Of a DNA stretch of 64,000 nucleotides, positions 17,385 to 25,802 are shown piece after piece. The notes under the pieces are model-generated. The model saw only the letters and a program-made list of their open reading frames with translations. It did not search any database and had not been told where the DNA came from. This DNA comes from Ramlibacter sp. (lineage in GTDB: Bacteria; Pseudomonadota; Gammaproteobacteria; Burkholderiales; Burkholderiaceae_C). The position numbers were made by a program, and so were the translations under genes. The stretch covers positions 1 through 64,000 of the forward strand of contig JAHBZN010000005.1 of NCBI GenBank assembly GCA_019635415.1, read 5' to 3'. How positions within the stretch are numbered: the stretch's first letter is position 1; each line of letters opens with the position of its first letter.

Positions 17385-19151
17385 ATGACCTTCAGCATCC
17401 ATGGCCTGGCCGTGGCCCGGGGCATCGCCATCGGGCGTGCCGTCCTGATCGCGTCCAGCCGCGTGGACGTTGCGCACTACTTCATCGAGGCGCCGCAGGT
17501 CGAGACCGAAATCGCCCGGGTGCGCGCGGGACGCAATGCCGTGGTGGACGAAATCCGCCGGCTGCAGCAGAGCATTGCCACCATGGGACCCAAGGAGACC
17601 CCGCACGAGCTGGCGGCGCTGCTGGATGTGCACCTCATGTTGCTGCAGGACGAAGAGCTCATCAGCGGCGTCAAGCACTGGATCACCGAACGCCTGTACA
17701 ACGCCGAGTGGGCCCTCACGACGCAGCTGGAGGTGATTGCCCGGCAGTTCGACGAGATGGAGGACGAGTACCTGCGCGAGCGCAAGGCCGACCTCGAACA
17801 GGTGGTCGAACGCATCCTGCGCTACATGAAGGGCGTGGCCTCGCCCGTGGCGCCGCCCAGCAGCCCGCGCCGCAAGACTCAGCAGGACCTGCTGCTCGAC
17901 GACACCATGGATGTGCCGCTGGTGCTGGTGGCGCATGATCTGTCGCCGGCCGACATGATGCAGTTCAAGCAGAGCGTGTTTGCCGGCTTCGTCACCGACG
18001 TGGGCGGCAAGACATCGCACACCGCCATCGTGGCGCGCAGCATGGACATTCCGGCCGTGGTGGGCGCGCGCGGTGCCAGCCAGCTGGTCCGCCAGGACGA
18101 CTGGATCATCATTGACGGCGACGCCGGGGTGGTGATCGTGGACCCTTCGGCCATCATCCTGGCCGAGTACGGATTCAAGCAGCGCCAGGGTGAGCTGGAG
18201 CGTACCCGGCTATCGCGCCTTCGCCATACGCCCGCCGTCACGCTGGACGGCCAGAAGATCGAGTTGCTGGCCAACATCGAGCTGCCTGGCGATGCGCCCG
18301 CCGCCGTGAATGCCGGGGCGGTTGGCGTGGGCCTGTTCCGCAGTGAATTCCTCTTCATGGGCCGCCAGGGCGACCTGCCCGACGAGGAAGAGCAGTACCA
18401 GGCCTACAAGCTGGCGGTGGAGGGCATGCAGGGCCTGCCCGTGACCATCCGCACGGTGGACGTCGGGGCCGACAAGCCGTTGCACGCCGGCGAGCGCGAC
18501 GCGGCGCACCTGAATCCGGCGCTGGGCCTGCGCGCGATCCGCTGGAGCCTTGCCGATCCGGCGATGTTTCTCAACCAGTTGCGAGCCATCCTTCGCGCAG
18601 CGGCACATGGGCAGATCAACCTGCTGATCCCGATGCTGGCCCATGCCAGCGAGATCCGCCACACCATGGCGCTGATCGACCGGGCGCGGGCCGAACTCGA
18701 CAACCAGGGCGTGGCCTACGGGGCGGTCAAGCTGGGCGCCATGATCGAGATCCCGGCGGCGGCCCTGACGCTGCGGATCTTCCTCAAGTACTTCGACTTC
18801 CTGTCCATTGGCACCAACGACCTGATCCAGTACACCCTGGCGATCGACCGCGCGGACGAGTCCGTTGCCCATCTGTACGACCCCTGCCACCCCGCGGTGC
18901 TGAGGCTGGTGGCCGAGACCATTGCCGAGTGCAATCGCCAGGGCAAGAGTGTGAGTGTCTGCGGCGAAATGGCGGGCGACGTCGCGCTGACGCGGCTGCT
19001 GCTGGGCCTGGGCCTGCGCAGCTTCTCCATGCATCCGGCGCAGATCCTCGCGGTCAAGCAGGAGGTGCTGCGGGCCGACACCTCGCGACTGGCGACCTGG
19101 GCCGCCGAGGTGCTTCAGGCCGAAGACCCGGGCAAGCTGCTGGCGGCCTGA
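17385..19151 (+). CDS. ptsI: PTS Enzyme I (phosphoenolpyruvate-protein phosphotransferase)
   Basis: Autophosphorylates with PEP and passes phosphate to HPr. The 588 residues contain the N-terminal HPr-binding domain, the swivelling domain with the active-site His212 in GGKTSHTAIVARS, and the C-terminal PEP-binding barrel with LFRSEFLFM (near 325), FLSIGTNDLIQY and the SVCGEMAGD segment with the expected catalytic Cys. It completes an EIIA-HPr-EI phosphorelay. Immediately after the stop lies a copy of the 70-bp dispersed element. Confidence 0.96.
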   Translation: MTFSIHGLAVARGIAIGRAVLIASSRVDVAHYFIEAPQVETEIARVRAGRNAVVDEIRRLQQSIATMGPKETPHELAALLDVHLMLLQDEELISGVKHWITERLYNAEWALTTQLEVIARQFDEMEDEYLRERKADLEQVVERILRYMKGVASPVAPPSSPRRKTQQDLLLDDTMDVPLVLVAHDLSPADMMQFKQSVFAGFVTDVGGKTSHTAIVARSMDIPAVVGARGASQLVRQDDWIIIDGDAGVVIVDPSAIILAEYGFKQRQGELERTRLSRLRHTPAVTLDGQKIELLANIELPGDAPAAVNAGAVGVGLFRSEFLFMGRQGDLPDEEEQYQAYKLAVEGMQGLPVTIRTVDVGADKPLHAGERDAAHLNPALGLRAIRWSLADPAMFLNQLRAILRAAAHGQINLLIPMLAHASEIRHTMALIDRARAELDNQGVAYGAVKLGAMIEIPAAALTLRIFLKYFDFLSIGTNDLIQYTLAIDRADESVAHLYDPCHPAVLRLVAETIAECNRQGKSVSVCGEMAGDVALTRLLLGLGLRSFSMHPAQILAVKQEVLRADTSRLATWAAEVLQAEDPGKLLAA

Positions 19152-19156
19152 CACGG

Positions 19157-19226
19157 CCCCACGCCGGCCACTTCGTGTGCTGCGCTGACCTCTGTGGGAG
19201 CGTCAACCGCCTTGGGGCGGCCCGGC
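19157..19226 (-). repeat. 70-bp dispersed element, copy 1
   Basis: Read on the minus strand it starts GCCGGGCCGCCCCAAGGCG, has a 20-base variable centre, then CAGCGCAGCACACGAAGTGG and ends GCGTGGGG. The same ends flank a different centre at 44929-44997. It fills most of the gap between the convergent ptsI and sdaA genes. Confidence 0.75.
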
Positions 19227-19239
19227 GGCGTCTGAGCCG

Positions 19240-20616
<1,377 letters not shown>

Positions 20617-20720
20617 GGTGGCCCGGTCAGTGAACGGCCAGTGTGCCACCGCGCCGCCGGGGCGCGGCCGTGCATTAGTGATCGGAATGTGCGATTCATC
20701 CGGGCGGACCGCCCGATGGC

Positions 20721-21638
20721 TCAGTCCGCGCCGGTTTCGAGTCCCGCGATGATGCGCGAGCAGGACTCGCACATCGCCGCAAAGGCCGCGGCCGTGGGCG
20801 TGAGGGGCGGATCCGTGCGGCGCACCAGGCAGTTGTCATAGCGGTGGGCCCGCTCCCGGATGCGGATGGGGTGCAACTGCGAACCCAGCAGGCCGCGTTG
20901 CACGATCACCGCTGGCACGAGAGCCAGCCAATCGGTGCTGCCAATCAGCGCGGCCAGTTCGGTAAAGGATTCGCAGGTTGCCGCCACGCTCGGTGGCGCC
21001 AGCCCGTGCTCGGCAAACAGCCTCAGCACGGTGCCGCCGGGCCCGCCCGCGGCGCCCATCGCCACCCATTCATGCCCGGCCAGCTCGCGCAGGCCGCGGG
21101 CGCCCGCCATGGGGTGACCCTGCCGCGCGACCACTGTCAGGTCGGTCTTGAACAACACACGGCTGGTCAGTCCCGGTCCGGCGCCTTCGTCGGGCACCGA
21201 GGTGATGGCCAGATCGATCAGGCCCTGCTGCAGGGCCGGCAGCAGGCGCTCGTAGAGCCCGCTCATGAGCCGCAGCTTGACAGCCGGGTAGCGCGCGTGG
21301 AAGTCCGGCACCACCTGCGGCAGCACCAGTGCGGTGGTGGTGGGCCCCACGCCCACGTGCAGGGTGCCGCCAGCGGCCCCGTTGGCGCTGGCCGCTTCAT
21401 CCGTGGCGCGTTGCACCTCGCGCTGGATCAACTGAGCACGGGCGTGCAGGCGGCGCCCTTCCTCGGTCAGCACCACGCCCTGGGCCGAGCGCTGCAGCAG
21501 CGAGACGCCCAGCCCGGTCTCCAGTGCCTGCAGGCTGTGGGTCAGTCCGGCCTGTGACACATCGAGCTGGCGCGCTGCGCGACGGAAACTGCCCCATTCG
21601 ACCACGGTCAGGAAAGCGCGCAGCTGTTGCAGGGTCAT
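20721..21638 (-). CDS. LysR-type regulator, divergent from the reductive dehalogenase
   Basis: A 305-residue LysR-family regulator. The N-terminal winged helix-turn-helix is clear (TLQQLRAFLTVVEWGSFRRAA, then LDVSQAGLTHSLQALE), followed by an effector-binding domain with LHVGVGPTT and the late GSTDWLALVPAVIV segment. The ATG at 21638 is the conserved family start; the open frame upstream would run through the operator region. It is divergent from the 1070-residue dehalogenase, 87 bases between starts, and an ATGAT-N11-ATCAT inverted repeat sits right in that gap. By analogy it should control the dehalogenase and itself in response to a small aromatic or halogenated effector (inference). Confidence 0.92.
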   Translation of the reverse strand: MTLQQLRAFLTVVEWGSFRRAARQLDVSQAGLTHSLQALETGLGVSLLQRSAQGVVLTEEGRRLHARAQLIQREVQRATDEAASANGAAGGTLHVGVGPTTTALVLPQVVPDFHARYPAVKLRLMSGLYERLLPALQQGLIDLAITSVPDEGAGPGLTSRVLFKTDLTVVARQGHPMAGARGLRELAGHEWVAMGAAGGPGGTVLRLFAEHGLAPPSVAATCESFTELAALIGSTDWLALVPAVIVQRGLLGSQLHPIRIRERAHRYDNCLVRRTDPPLTPTAAAFAAMCESCSRIIAGLETGAD

Positions 21639-21652
21639 GGGGCAAACGAAGG

Positions 21653-21673
21653 ATGATTCACAAAATCGATCAT
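21653..21673. promoter_or_regulatory. putative LysR operator (T-N11-A)
   Basis: ATGAT (21653-21657), 11 bases, ATCAT (21669-21673) is a perfect inverted repeat with the T-N11-A geometry of LysR regulators. It lies between the divergent regulator and dehalogenase. A second ATGATC at 21696-21701 is in inverted orientation to the GATCAT at 21668-21673 and could be the activation half-site nearer the dehalogenase. Confidence 0.6.
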
Positions 21674-21725
21674 GATAAGGTTTGATTCGCTTCCTATGAT
21701 CGCTTGTGCGGCCTAAGCTGCCGTC

Positions 21726-24700
21726 ATGCGCTTCTTTTCCTACCGTGACCGCCCCGTCCACCTTGGCCCCTACCCGCTGGAGCGGCTGACCCGGCAGCCG
21801 GGCCCGATCGACCTGTCGGGCCTAGCGGGCATGCAGGCCCTGTCGTTTGACGACCCCGACCCCCAGTCGCTCACGCACGCCATGGCCCGCTACATGGCAA
21901 TGTTCGACCTCGTGCGTGATGGCAGCGTCAACCCCGCGCAGGGAGAGGTGCCCCCGGACCCCGTCCAGCGCGCGGAGCATCTCAAGGCGGCCGGCTACTA
22001 CTTCGACGCTTCCATGATGGGGGCCTGCACGCTGCCGCGCGAGGCGCTGCTGGCCGAACCGATCCGCAATGCCGCGGTGCCGGCCCTGGGCGCGGAGCTG
22101 GAGCGCAACCAGCCGACCAGCTTCGCGGCGGGCATGGACATGATCCTGGCCGACGTGCTGGAGTCGGCGCGCAAGCAGCATGGACCGATCCGTCATCACA
22201 CGCACGCGCTGCTGGTGCTGGTGGAGTTCCCGCGCGACCCGCGCCCGGGCGAGCCGGGCTGCGACTGGATCGCCGGCACCCAGGCGCAGCGTGCGGCGCT
22301 GCTTGCCGCACAGACCGCGGTGCTGCTGTCCACCTACCTGCGCATGCTCGGCCACGAGGCGCGCGCCCACAGCGCCACCTGCAGTGAGGTCGATCTGGGC
22401 CGGCTGGCCGTGCACGGCGGCCTGGCCCATGCGGGCGGCAGCAACCCCTACGCAGGCACGCGCTACGGCCTGGCCGCCGTGACCACGACGTTCGAGATCG
22501 CACCGGATCGGCCGCTGGCCCCGGCCCAAGCCCAGCGGCGCGGGCAGTCCCATGGGCCGGCCTGGTGGCTGGGCAAGGGAACGCTCAAGAGCGCGCTCAA
22601 CCGCGAGGCTTATGCCGGGCGCGACTTTCGCCTGGGCGCGTATCCGTTCGAGAAGCTCCGGCGCCGCGAGCAGCCCACCACCTTCATTGACCATGCGCGG
22701 GTGCCGCGCTTTCCCAAGCGGGCCGATTTCTTTGCCCGCTCCCTGTTCGGTGATCTGGGCAAGCCGGTGCAGGACGATGCCCGCAACGCGCACTATGTGA
22801 TGAAGAGCCCGATCGGGGCCTGCGCGCGGCGCGCGCTCGGGGCCTTGCTGCTGCTGCAGTTTGGCGAGGCCCGCGGGCCGGTGGCGGCCGGCACCGCCGA
22901 CCCGCGCCGCAACGCCGACAACCTCAAGGCCACGGCGTACTACCTGGGGGTGGACGCCGTGGGCCTGTGCGCCGTGCCCGAGTGGGCCTACTACTCGCAT
23001 GACGCGGGCGGCAACCCGATGGCCGCCTACCATGCCAACGCCGTCAACCTGCTGATCGACCAGGGCCACGAGACCATGGAAGGCGCCAGCGGCGACGACT
23101 GGATCTCGGTGGCCCAGAGCATGCGCGCCTACCTGCGCTTTTCACTCATGGGCGGCGTGGTCGCCGAGCAGGTGCGCCGGCTGGGCTACTCGGCGCGCGT
23201 GCACTCGGTGCTGGACGGCGACGTGCTGCAACCCCCCTTGCTGCTGCTGTCGGGCCTGGGGGAGGTCAGCCGCATCGGCGAGGTGATTCTCAACCCCTAC
23301 CTGGGCCCGCGCCTGAAAAGCGGCACCACCACCGACATGCCCATGGCGGCGGACCAGCCGATCGATTTCGGCCTGCAGACCTTCTGCGAGAGCTGCAACA
23401 AGTGCGCGCGCGAATGCCCGTCCGGTGCCATCACGGCCGGCCCCAAGCTCATGTACAACGGCTACGAGATCTGGAAGAGCGACGCCGAAAAATGCGCGCG
23501 CTACCGCATCACCAATGCCGCCGGGGGCATGTGCGGGCGCTGCATGAAGACCTGCCCCTGGAACCTGGAGGGCCTGTTCGCCGAAAGCGGCTTCCGCTGG
23601 CTCGCCATGAACGTGCCCGCGAGCGCGCGCCTGCTGGCCGGGCTGGACGACCGCCTGGACCGCGGCAGCATCAACCCGGTCAAGACCTGGTGGTGGGACA
23701 TCGAACTGGATCGCGGCAGCGGCCGCTATGTGCAGGCCCGCCAGACGCACCGGCGTGGCCTGCAGAAGGACCTGCAACTGCGCTACGAGGACCAGACCCT
23801 GGCCGTCTACCCCGCCGACAGGATGCCGCCGCCGTACCCGGTGACCTTCCCGGTCAACCGCGAGGAGGGCATTGAGCGCTACCGGTCGCTGCTCACGCCG
23901 GCGCAGTACCGGTCGCGGCTGGCGTCAGGCGAGACCGAAGGCCTGGCACCGCCCACGCGGCCCCTGCAGGGTGAGCCGCCGGTGTTCCCGGTGCTGCTGA
24001 AGCGGCGCGAAGAGATGGCCGTGGACGTGGCACGCTATGAATTCGCCGCGCTGGACGGCGCCGATCTGCCGCCGTTCGAGCCCGGGGCGCACATTGACGT
24101 GGTGATCGCGCCGGAGTACCAGCGGTCCTACAGCCTTGCAGGTGACCCGGCCGACCGAAGCCGGTATGTGCTGGGCGTGCTGCGCGAGCCGGCCGGGCGG
24201 GGCGGCTCGGCGCTGATGCACCGGGCTTTCCGCGAGGGCCGGCGCGTCTTCATCTCCCGGCCGGCCAATCATTTTCCGCTGGTGGAGCAGGCCCGCTTCT
24301 CGTTGCTGTTCGCCGGCGGCATTGGCGTCACGCCCATGCTGACGATGGCCCACCGCCTGCACGCGCTGGGTCGCCCCTTCGCGCTGCACTACAGCGCGGC
24401 CAGCCGGCGCAGCGCGGGCTTCCTGGCCGAACTGGCCGCGGCGCCCTGGAAGGACCGGGTCAGCCTGCACCTCAAGGACGAGGGCCTGCGCGCCGACCTG
24501 CCGGCCCTGATGCCGCCGCATGAGCCGGGCTTCCATGTCTACACCTGCGGCGCGCCGCGTTTCATGGACGGCGTGTTCGAGGCTGCCGTCGCGCGCGGCT
24601 GGCCCGAGGACGCGATGCACCGCGAGTACTTCAGCGTGCCCGAAGCGGCCAGCTGGCAGAACCATCCCTTCACGCTGCGCCTGGCGCGCCTGGGACGCAG

Positions 24701-24938
24701 CTTCGAGGTGCCGGCCGACCGCAGCGCCACGGACGTGCTCGCCGATGCCGGCCTGGCCGTGGACACCAAGTGCAGCGACGGGCTGTGCGGGGTCTGCGCC
24801 ACCGCCTACGACGCCGCGGCGTCCGGCGAGATCGAGCACCGCGACTTCGTGCTCAGCGCCCGTGAACGCGGCCAGCGCGTGATCCTGTGCTGCTCGCGCC
24901 CCAGGGCGCCTGGCGCCGAACTGGTGGTGGACCTCTGA
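21726..24938 (+). CDS. self-sufficient reductive dehalogenase fused to phthalate-dioxygenase-reductase module (BhbA-like)
   Basis: A 1070-residue predicted cobalamin-dependent reductive dehalogenase carrying its own NAD(P)H electron input. Residues 1-260 and 295-550 look like a duplicated cobalamin-binding core (LGPYPLERL against LGAYPFEKL; LKAAGYYFD against LKATAYYLG). Two [4Fe-4S] sites follow: Cys554, 557, 560, 564 and Cys590, 603, 606, 610. Tyr469 and Lys531 (NPYLGPRLK) are 62 residues apart, the spacing of catalytic Tyr426/Lys488 in Nitratireductor NpRdhA; Arg592 or Arg594 could match Arg552. From about 755 comes a reductase: RSYSL flavin motif at 800-804, LLFAGGIGVTPML nucleotide-binding segment, and a plant-type [2Fe-2S] site (Cys1016, 1021, 1024, and 1055 or 1056). 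The same architecture is known in BhbA of Comamonas sp. 7D-2. No Tat signal is visible, so it should be cytosolic and non-respiratory. Substrate unknown. Confidence 0.88.
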   Translation: MRFFSYRDRPVHLGPYPLERLTRQPGPIDLSGLAGMQALSFDDPDPQSLTHAMARYMAMFDLVRDGSVNPAQGEVPPDPVQRAEHLKAAGYYFDASMMGACTLPREALLAEPIRNAAVPALGAELERNQPTSFAAGMDMILADVLESARKQHGPIRHHTHALLVLVEFPRDPRPGEPGCDWIAGTQAQRAALLAAQTAVLLSTYLRMLGHEARAHSATCSEVDLGRLAVHGGLAHAGGSNPYAGTRYGLAAVTTTFEIAPDRPLAPAQAQRRGQSHGPAWWLGKGTLKSALNREAYAGRDFRLGAYPFEKLRRREQPTTFIDHARVPRFPKRADFFARSLFGDLGKPVQDDARNAHYVMKSPIGACARRALGALLLLQFGEARGPVAAGTADPRRNADNLKATAYYLGVDAVGLCAVPEWAYYSHDAGGNPMAAYHANAVNLLIDQGHETMEGASGDDWISVAQSMRAYLRFSLMGGVVAEQVRRLGYSARVHSVLDGDVLQPPLLLLSGLGEVSRIGEVILNPYLGPRLKSGTTTDMPMAADQPIDFGLQTFCESCNKCARECPSGAITAGPKLMYNGYEIWKSDAEKCARYRITNAAGGMCGRCMKTCPWNLEGLFAESGFRWLAMNVPASARLLAGLDDRLDRGSINPVKTWWWDIELDRGSGRYVQARQTHRRGLQKDLQLRYEDQTLAVYPADRMPPPYPVTFPVNREEGIERYRSLLTPAQYRSRLASGETEGLAPPTRPLQGEPPVFPVLLKRREEMAVDVARYEFAALDGADLPPFEPGAHIDVVIAPEYQRSYSLAGDPADRSRYVLGVLREPAGRGGSALMHRAFREGRRVFISRPANHFPLVEQARFSLLFAGGIGVTPMLTMAHRLHALGRPFALHYSAASRRSAGFLAELAAAPWKDRVSLHLKDEGLRADLPALMPPHEPGFHVYTCGAPRFMDGVFEAAVARGWPEDAMHREYFSVPEAASWQNHPFTLRLARLGRSFEVPADRSATDVLADAGLAVDTKCSDGLCGVCATAYDAAASGEIEHRDFVLSARERGQRVILCCSRPRAPGAELVVDL

Positions 24939-24944
24939 GGCCGG

Positions 24945-25802
24945 TCAATCCGCGCGGCTGCGGGTGCCGAGCAGCGCCGCGCCGATGATGAGGGCCGCCG
25001 CCAGACCAATGCTCCAGCTTGGCGCGCGGCCACTGACCCCCATCAGCAGCAGGGTGGAGAGCAGCGGCGTGAGGTAGCTCAGGATGCCGATGTGGCGCGC
25101 ATCGCCCAGCTTGAGCGCGCGGTCCCAGAGGTAGAACGCCGCGCCGAGCGGTCCCAGGCCCATGACGCCGAGCAGGAGCCAGTCACGCGCCGCAAGCGTG
25201 ACGGCGGGCTCGAGCAGGGCATGGCAGAGCAGCGACAACAGCCCCGAGATCAGTCCGAACAGGCCCACGGCGGCGGTGGGAAACGCCGCCACGCGGCGCG
25301 TCATCAGCGAGTAGCTGGCCCAGATGAAGGCCGAGCCCAGCGCCAGCAGGTAGCCCCAGGACCAGCCGCCCCCGCTGTCGCCCTGCCGGGCACCCAGGAT
25401 CGCCACCGCCGCACCAGCAAAGCCGAGCAGCGCCGCGGCCACGTGCACCCAGCGCAAGCGCAGGCCCGGCAGGAACAGCGGCGCCAGCACCACGATGAAC
25501 AGCGGCCACAGGTAGTTGACCAGATTGGCCTCCACCGGCGGCGCGATGCGCAGGGCCATGAACAGCAGGAAGTGAAAGCCGAACAGTCCGTACACGCCGA
25601 CCGCCAGCGTCCCGGGCGCGATGGCCCACAGCCGGGGCGCGCGCGCGACCAGCGGCCACGAAGGCAGGCTGCCGATCAGCAGCGCCAGCCCGGTGAGCAG
25701 GAAAGGGGGCACGTGGCGAAGCGACACCCCCAGTGATGCGAGGATGGCCCACAGCAGGATGGCGCCCAGGGCATGGAGGTTCGCGCGGGTGGAGTCGGAC
25801 AT
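24945..25802 (-). CDS. EamA/DMT-family transporter
   Basis: A 285-residue, ten-helix drug/metabolite-type exporter with two EamA repeats (first about 10-135, second about 150-280), each ending in the usual positively charged turn. FGFHFLLFMALRIAPPVEANLV is typical of the first repeat. I use the ATG at 25802; a GTG at 25811 is also in frame. It is convergent with the dehalogenase (six bases apart) and lies downstream of the AraC-type gene on the same strand, so that regulator may control it. Substrate unknown. Confidence 0.88.
   Translation of the reverse strand: MSDSTRANLHALGAILLWAILASLGVSLRHVPPFLLTGLALLIGSLPSWPLVARAPRLWAIAPGTLAVGVYGLFGFHFLLFMALRIAPPVEANLVNYLWPLFIVVLAPLFLPGLRLRWVHVAAALLGFAGAAVAILGARQGDSGGGWSWGYLLALGSAFIWASYSLMTRRVAAFPTAAVGLFGLISGLLSLLCHALLEPAVTLAARDWLLLGVMGLGPLGAAFYLWDRALKLGDARHIGILSYLTPLLSTLLLMGVSGRAPSWSIGLAAALIIGAALLGTRSRAD

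Follow-up and report, generated by a model that had tools for sequence, protein, structure and literature searches.

Reductive dehalogenases (RdhA) fused to a reductase are described as a subfamily in the report on JtRdhA from Jhaorihella thermophila (PMC10463259). According to that report, purified JtRdhA is NADPH-dependent and oxygen-tolerant, accepts bromo- and iodo-phenolics and is only inhibited by chloro-phenols. It is 39% identical to NpRdhA, which, unlike JtRdhA, reduces chlorinated compounds. In the complexes of NpRdhA from Nitratireductor pacificus (PDB 4ras, 6zxu/6zxx/6zy0/6zy1), the phenol oxygen is held by Ser422, Lys488 and Arg552, and Tyr426 donates a proton (PMC7565698). BhbA of Comamonas sp. 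7D-2 (WP_015585978) is encoded on plasmid pBHB in a catabolic cluster that includes genes for protocatechuate 4,5-dioxygenase. The gene considered here, rdhA, lies in a 64,000-nucleotide stretch of Ramlibacter sp. contig JAHBZN010000005.1 (the window). A first-pass annotation of this DNA had described the product as a fused dehalogenase of the BhbA type and BhbA as the only known fused example. The latter statement is superseded by JtRdhA, which has been purified and its substrate range measured (PMC10463259). On the grounds of sequence and structural modelling, the rdhA product is assigned to the published "self-sufficient catabolic RdhA" subfamily (BhbA, JtRdhA) as an intact reductive dehalogenase.

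The open reading frame comprises 1070 codons without an internal stop or frameshift and occupies exactly positions 21726-24938 of the forward strand. The N-terminal sequence of the product (MRFFSYRDRPVHLGP) is aligned with NpRdhA from residue 1 of the latter (MRLYSNRDRPNHLGP) onwards, without an extension; the start codon is therefore right and a twin-arginine translocation (Tat) leader is absent, in line with the cytosolic location proposed earlier. A respiratory RdhA of the PceA type was rejected for want of a Tat leader and an N-terminal extension. No rdhB-type membrane anchor was seen among the identified neighbours, no rdhB model having been searched. Besides the missing leader, the features of the subfamily found in the product are a vestigial core, a C-terminal module resembling phthalate dioxygenase reductase and the equivalent of Arg552. 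The NCBIfam model TIGR02486 (RDH) scored 179.6 bits, above its cut-off of 160.35. Pfam PF13486 gave zero matches in the genome carrying the window, as it did in every control genome.

In phmmer searches against solved structures, residues 1-735 matched NpRdhA (PDB 4ras, E 1.1e-165) and residues 758-1070 matched phthalate dioxygenase reductase (2pia, E 7.3e-66), which differs in being a free-standing reductase. An AlphaFold2 model built with 43 relatives and containing no cofactors (mean predicted local distance difference test 83.5, predicted template modelling score 0.85) agreed with 4ras at Z 37.8 and a root-mean-square deviation (rmsd) of 2.3 over 660 residues (42% identity). The agreement with 2pia was Z 28.6 over residues 750-1070 (40% identity). 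The rmsd to 2pia was large (12.9) over both parts taken together, and the [2Fe-2S] domain is therefore probably positioned differently in the model. NpRdhA shares the fold of residues 1-735 and the active site, but has no reductase module and lacks the 42-residue insert at 104-145. An insert common to RdhA-reductase fusions is described in PMC10463259, and residues 104-145 may be its equivalent.

The duplicated cobalamin-binding core is detectable within the protein itself (self-match, E 1e-10), and the second core also matches residues 73-222 of NpRdhA at 50 bits. In the N-terminal copy, A187, Q188, A191 and L249 stand at the counterparts of S465, M466, Y469 and K531; this copy is taken to be vestigial because Ala191 and Leu249 occupy the Tyr and Lys positions. 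In an alignment of 92 sequences, 91 of them fused, the eight [4Fe-4S] cysteines were invariant, as were Cys1016/1021/1024/1055 of the [2Fe-2S] module in the fused 91; the set did not include JtRdhA. Together with the duplicated core and the TIGR02486, NpRdhA, 2pia, Fer4_16/Fer4_7 and Fer2 matches, this bears out the domain architecture proposed in the first-pass annotation. JtRdhA has the same composition of vestigial and catalytic cores, two [4Fe-4S] sites and a C-terminal reductase module without a Tat leader. BhbA is alike in architecture, length (1071 aa, L092) and catalytic residues.

The pairing of Tyr469 and Lys531 with Tyr426 and Lys488 of NpRdhA, noticed earlier from their spacing, was confirmed by alignment. 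As to the arginine proposed for comparison (Arg592 or Arg594), only Arg594 proved equivalent to Arg552. Met466 aligns with Met423 and Phe336 with Phe291. The residues Tyr469, Lys531, Arg594, Ser465, Met466 and Phe336 were identical in all 92 aligned sequences, and JtRdhA likewise keeps F291/S422/M423/Y426/K488/R552 (NpRdhA numbering).

These residues also bear on the reading of the product as an epoxyqueuosine reductase (QueG), or a relative of it with a reductase tail. The two enzymes share the class III cobalamin/[4Fe-4S] family, and the QueG model does match weakly. Its 17.7 bits are far under the cut-off of 200, however; a bona fide QueG is encoded separately in the same genome (C12:825266, 445.8 bits) and gives just 40 bits with the rdhA product in BLASTP, and the catalytic dyad and the Arg552 equivalent are as in RdhA. 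The dehalogenase assignment made earlier thus stood, and the QueG reading is extremely improbable. A decaying or inactive relic is nearly as improbable: nothing was found in its favour, the frame is undisturbed, the catalytic residues and the full set of 12 cluster cysteines are kept, and a full-length copy with 89% identity occurs in a second genome of the genus. For a gene this long, conservation at 54-89% identity in dozens of genomes rules out a chance frame.

What was observed here is the domain make-up, the residues, the fold, the association with a regulator and the capacity of the genome; cofactors, electron route, chemistry and oxygen tolerance are carried over from characterised homologues. 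On this basis, rdhA very probably encodes a cytosolic, oxygen-tolerant, self-sufficient catabolic reductive dehalogenase under LysR control, the reaction product of which would go to PobA. NAD(P)H would reduce the flavin of the C-terminal module, which would release electrons singly to the [2Fe-2S] cluster, then to the two [4Fe-4S] clusters and finally to the cobalamin of the second core, held in the base-off state. The oxygen of an ortho-halogenated phenol would be gripped by Ser465, Lys531 and Arg594, with the halogen above the cobalt; the halogen would then be removed, with Tyr469 supplying the proton. The divergent LysR regulator would most likely turn rdhA on in response to the substrate, the nature of the inducer being a guess. 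The dehalogenated product, of the 4-hydroxybenzoate type, would pass to PobA, which is encoded elsewhere in the genome. By analogy with the characterised enzymes, the substrates are most likely bromo- and iodo-phenolics, for instance 3,5-dibromo-4-hydroxybenzoate, and perhaps chlorinated ones; any exact substrate is a guess.

Several observations weigh against this interpretation. The pocket near the second halogen and the ring differs from that of NpRdhA at five positions (K307A, F310Y, P311V, A419V, N452V). The active-site loops 446-457 and 519-530 of the catalytic core are of low confidence in the AlphaFold2 model, which was built without cobalamin. No gene of halogenated-aromatic metabolism lies beside rdhA, and the neighbours vary among relatives, so that the context names no substrate. 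The papers searched contained no assay of any protein of the Burkholderiales branch to which the enzyme belongs.

This branch was recovered among relatives found with six short peptide patterns, which were run against 84,980 species genomes and led to 211 confirmed relatives. The 80 best of these were examined; all were essentially full length and 54-81% identical, so that the earlier description of such enzymes as rare was overstated. The nearest relative (89% identity) is the full-length protein of the second genome of the genus, and Burkholderiales relatives of the same branch (Limnohabitans, Ramlibacter, Hydrogenophaga and others) are 70-89% identical. In the tree, the rdhA product falls into a 36-row branch with support 99. 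Its members are almost all betaproteobacterial (Limnohabitans, Ramlibacter, Hydrogenophaga, Rubrivivax and other Burkholderiales), and their hosts are largely freshwater, groundwater and soil taxa. The sister group (support 100) is alphaproteobacterial. The placement of the root is uncertain, NpRdhA being the sole outgroup and its branch very long. Within the family the gene is patchy, occurring in 7 of 401 sampled genomes. Two members of the branch lie on small metagenome contigs, namely L024, titled as a Bordetella parapertussis metagenome-assembled genome (MAG), and L037, titled as a Candidatus Fonsibacter lacus MAG; their organism labels look wrong, or the contigs were misbinned.

BhbA groups with a Nitratireductor protein (L095, support 100) from Nitratireductor sp. 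OM-1, outside the other 89 fused sequences. The "BhbA type" label of the first-pass annotation consequently holds for the architecture and not for the branch. Membership in a BhbA orthologue group was rejected: the two proteins are 52% identical and not monophyletic, and the window rdhA has sdaA, LysR, EamA, AraC and lipA genes as neighbours, with no linked hydroxybenzoate or protocatechuate genes. The absence of a ring-cleavage gene beside rdhA had been recorded correctly before. An identification of Pararhodobacter A0A2T7UTL8, reported with triiodophenol (PMC13101508), as the Pararhodobacter relative L035 was rejected: A0A2T7UTL8 is 72% identical to a short reductive dehalogenase in which, in contrast to the fused type, the Fe-S motifs are located at residues 283-345.

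An enzyme of the same class may have another main substrate, either chlorinated phenolics or a naturally occurring halogenated aromatic outside the hydroxybenzoates; this alternative is possible, though it ranks well below the bromo- and iodo-phenolic reading. The pocket positions are uniform in the 36-row branch (F290, Y310, V311, V419, V452, with A at 307; NpRdhA numbering), unlike NpRdhA and BhbA, and partly unlike other, alphaproteobacterial sequences; BhbA, for example, has Ser at F310 and A419, where the window protein has Tyr and Val. The habitats of the hosts, the want of a hydroxybenzoate pathway gene beside rdhA and the reduction of chlorinated compounds by NpRdhA but not by JtRdhA argue in the same direction. 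Nevertheless, none of the residues responsible for phenol-oxygen binding and proton donation is changed, and the fused enzyme measured in detail took bromo- and iodo-phenols, not chloro-phenols. JtRdhA itself differs in its marine alphaproteobacterial host and its known substrate range (bromo- and iodo-phenolics). The earlier suggestion of a new substrate is neither favoured nor contradicted by the pocket, in which all phenol-oxygen-binding residues are conserved and several second-shell residues are changed. Tentatively, the Burkholderiales branch might even be a functionally distinct group with a substrate of its own, perhaps chlorinated phenolics or a natural organohalide of freshwater, and with a dedicated LysR sensor in the genus.

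A divergent LysR gene beside rdhA, missed in the first-pass annotation, is probably its regulator. The same divergent arrangement is present in the second genome of the genus (L085, LysR 92% identity) and in a Hydrogenophaga MAG (L007, LysR 61% identity). A sigma-70-like site at 21672-21700 (+) has 9/12 matches, the shuffles of the scanned 3.6 kb averaging 0.1, and is a consensus match only. The sequence features are collected in Table 1.

Table 1. Features of rdhA and its surroundings in the window
Feature	Position	Strand	Basis
rdhA, predicted self-sufficient catabolic reductive dehalogenase, 1070 aa	21726..24938	+	TIGR02486, NpRdhA match, AlphaFold2 model
Vestigial N-terminal cobalamin core copy, residues ~77-265	21954..22520	+	Self-match to second copy
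Insert of 42 residues relative to NpRdhA, residues 104-145	22035..22160	+	Alignment to NpRdhA
Catalytic cobalamin-binding core, residues ~390-545	22893..23360	+	Alignment to NpRdhA 346-520
Ser465 = NpRdhA Ser422 (phenol-oxygen binder)	23118..23120	+	Alignment; role from PMC7565698
Tyr469 = NpRdhA Tyr426 (proton donor)	23130..23132	+	Alignment; role from PMC7565698
Lys531 = NpRdhA Lys488	23316..23318	+	Alignment
Two [4Fe-4S] sites: Cys554, 557, 560, 564, 590, 603, 606, 610	23385..23564	+	Pfam Fer4_16/Fer4_7 above cut-off
Arg594 = NpRdhA Arg552 (phenol-oxygen binder)	23505..23507	+	Alignment; Arg592 not equivalent
Flavin/NAD(P)H reductase module, residues 750-972	23973..24641	+	Fold and phmmer match to 2pia
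[2Fe-2S] ferredoxin module, Cys1016/1021/1024/1055	24663..24935	+	Pfam Fer2 above cut-off
Divergent LysR-type regulator	20721..21638	-	Pfam HTH_1 and LysR_substrate
Intergenic region, 87 bases, presumed shared control region	21639..21725	.	LysR/rdhA divergent
L-serine dehydratase sdaA, edge of genus-specific block	19240..20616	-	Pfam SDH_alpha/SDH_beta

In the two genomes of the genus, ptsI and EamA flank the sdaA-LysR-rdhA block. Window positions 17385-25802 were compared with loci L110-L113 and L116 from five other genera of the family, in which EamA comes directly after ptsI, lipA comes next wherever the retrieved sequence is long enough to show it, and the block is absent. This distribution points to a gain of the block in the ancestor of the genus and its fixation in both species, loss in all the others being less simple. 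Among the genomes compared, the block is a sharply bounded islet in the conserved ptsI-EamA order, and the empty site can be inferred. In L111, the match to the EamA homologue was reported with one in-frame TGA. Neither sdaA nor EamA was retained as a partner of rdhA: sdaA is absent beside rdhA in L007 and is probably just part of the same block, and the EamA transporter belongs to a ptsI-EamA-lipA order also found in genera without rdhA.

The uncharacterised rdhA genes of other Burkholderiales mostly have neighbours and regulators different from those of the window gene. In other lineages the regulator near rdhA is of the MarR, TetR or GntR type, and because this type changes between lineages, rdhA appears to move on its own and to come under local control. 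Limnohabitans relatives have a methyltransferase gene upstream and SDR, NIPSNAP and M20 peptidase genes downstream, and some alphaproteobacteria have a MarR gene plus an MttB-family or TRAP-transporter gene nearby. In 16 loci, including L031:5794-7263, a gene of the MttB (trimethylamine methyltransferase) family stands at most a few genes upstream of rdhA. It adjoins the MarR gene in the loci checked (L031 and L032), and a functional link is possible. An attempt to derive the substrate from conserved neighbours in 48 loci failed, nothing being shared across branches. Apart from the surroundings of BhbA and its Nitratireductor relative, no aromatic pathway gene is conserved next to rdhA.

A mainly detoxifying role, in which halogens are stripped from toxic environmental phenols without feeding growth, would explain a stand-alone rdhA with its own regulator. 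The recurrence of changing regulators (LysR, MarR, TetR, GntR) rather than a conserved pathway as near neighbours and the patchy presence in the family are consistent with it. It is, however, held to be distinctly less probable than a catabolic role: pobA for the likely product is present in the genome, BhbA stands in a full plasmid catabolic cluster and the Nitratireductor relative lies near pobA and extradiol dioxygenase genes.

The pobA gene of the genome, on another contig, scored 654.8 bits against a cut-off of 538.7, and PobA would act on 4-hydroxybenzoate. The check for cobalamin genes proposed in the first-pass annotation revealed a riboswitch and a salvage operon: a cobalamin riboswitch precedes btuB, a BtuF/C/D-type transporter, cobU, cobO, cbiB, cobD and cobQ, the matches of btuB, the transporter parts and cobD falling below the curated cut-offs of their models. 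The cobS gene is on another contig. Since a search of the genome for CobN of the aerobic de novo route was negative (other de novo routes were not tested), corrinoid uptake and remodelling are the likely source of cobalamin. No RNA families were found in the window. Elsewhere in the genome (C19, L103:12855-12919), a Betaproteobacteria_toxic_sRNA (Rfam RF02278) matched at 58.8 bits, above the gathering score of 50.

Self-sufficient RdhAs have already been described and characterised, and the window rdhA is a well-formed member of an uncharacterised freshwater and soil branch. What makes it valuable is this branch with its probable dedicated sensor rather than any new mechanism. Because NAD(P)H is all they require and they function in air, such enzymes are practical candidates for the dehalogenation of pollutants such as brominated flame retardants. 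The restriction of the fused enzymes to brominated compounds is left open in the JtRdhA paper (PMC10463259). An intact Burkholderiales branch of freshwater and soil origin, whose inducer may be traceable through the conserved LysR neighbour, offers a direct route to this question.

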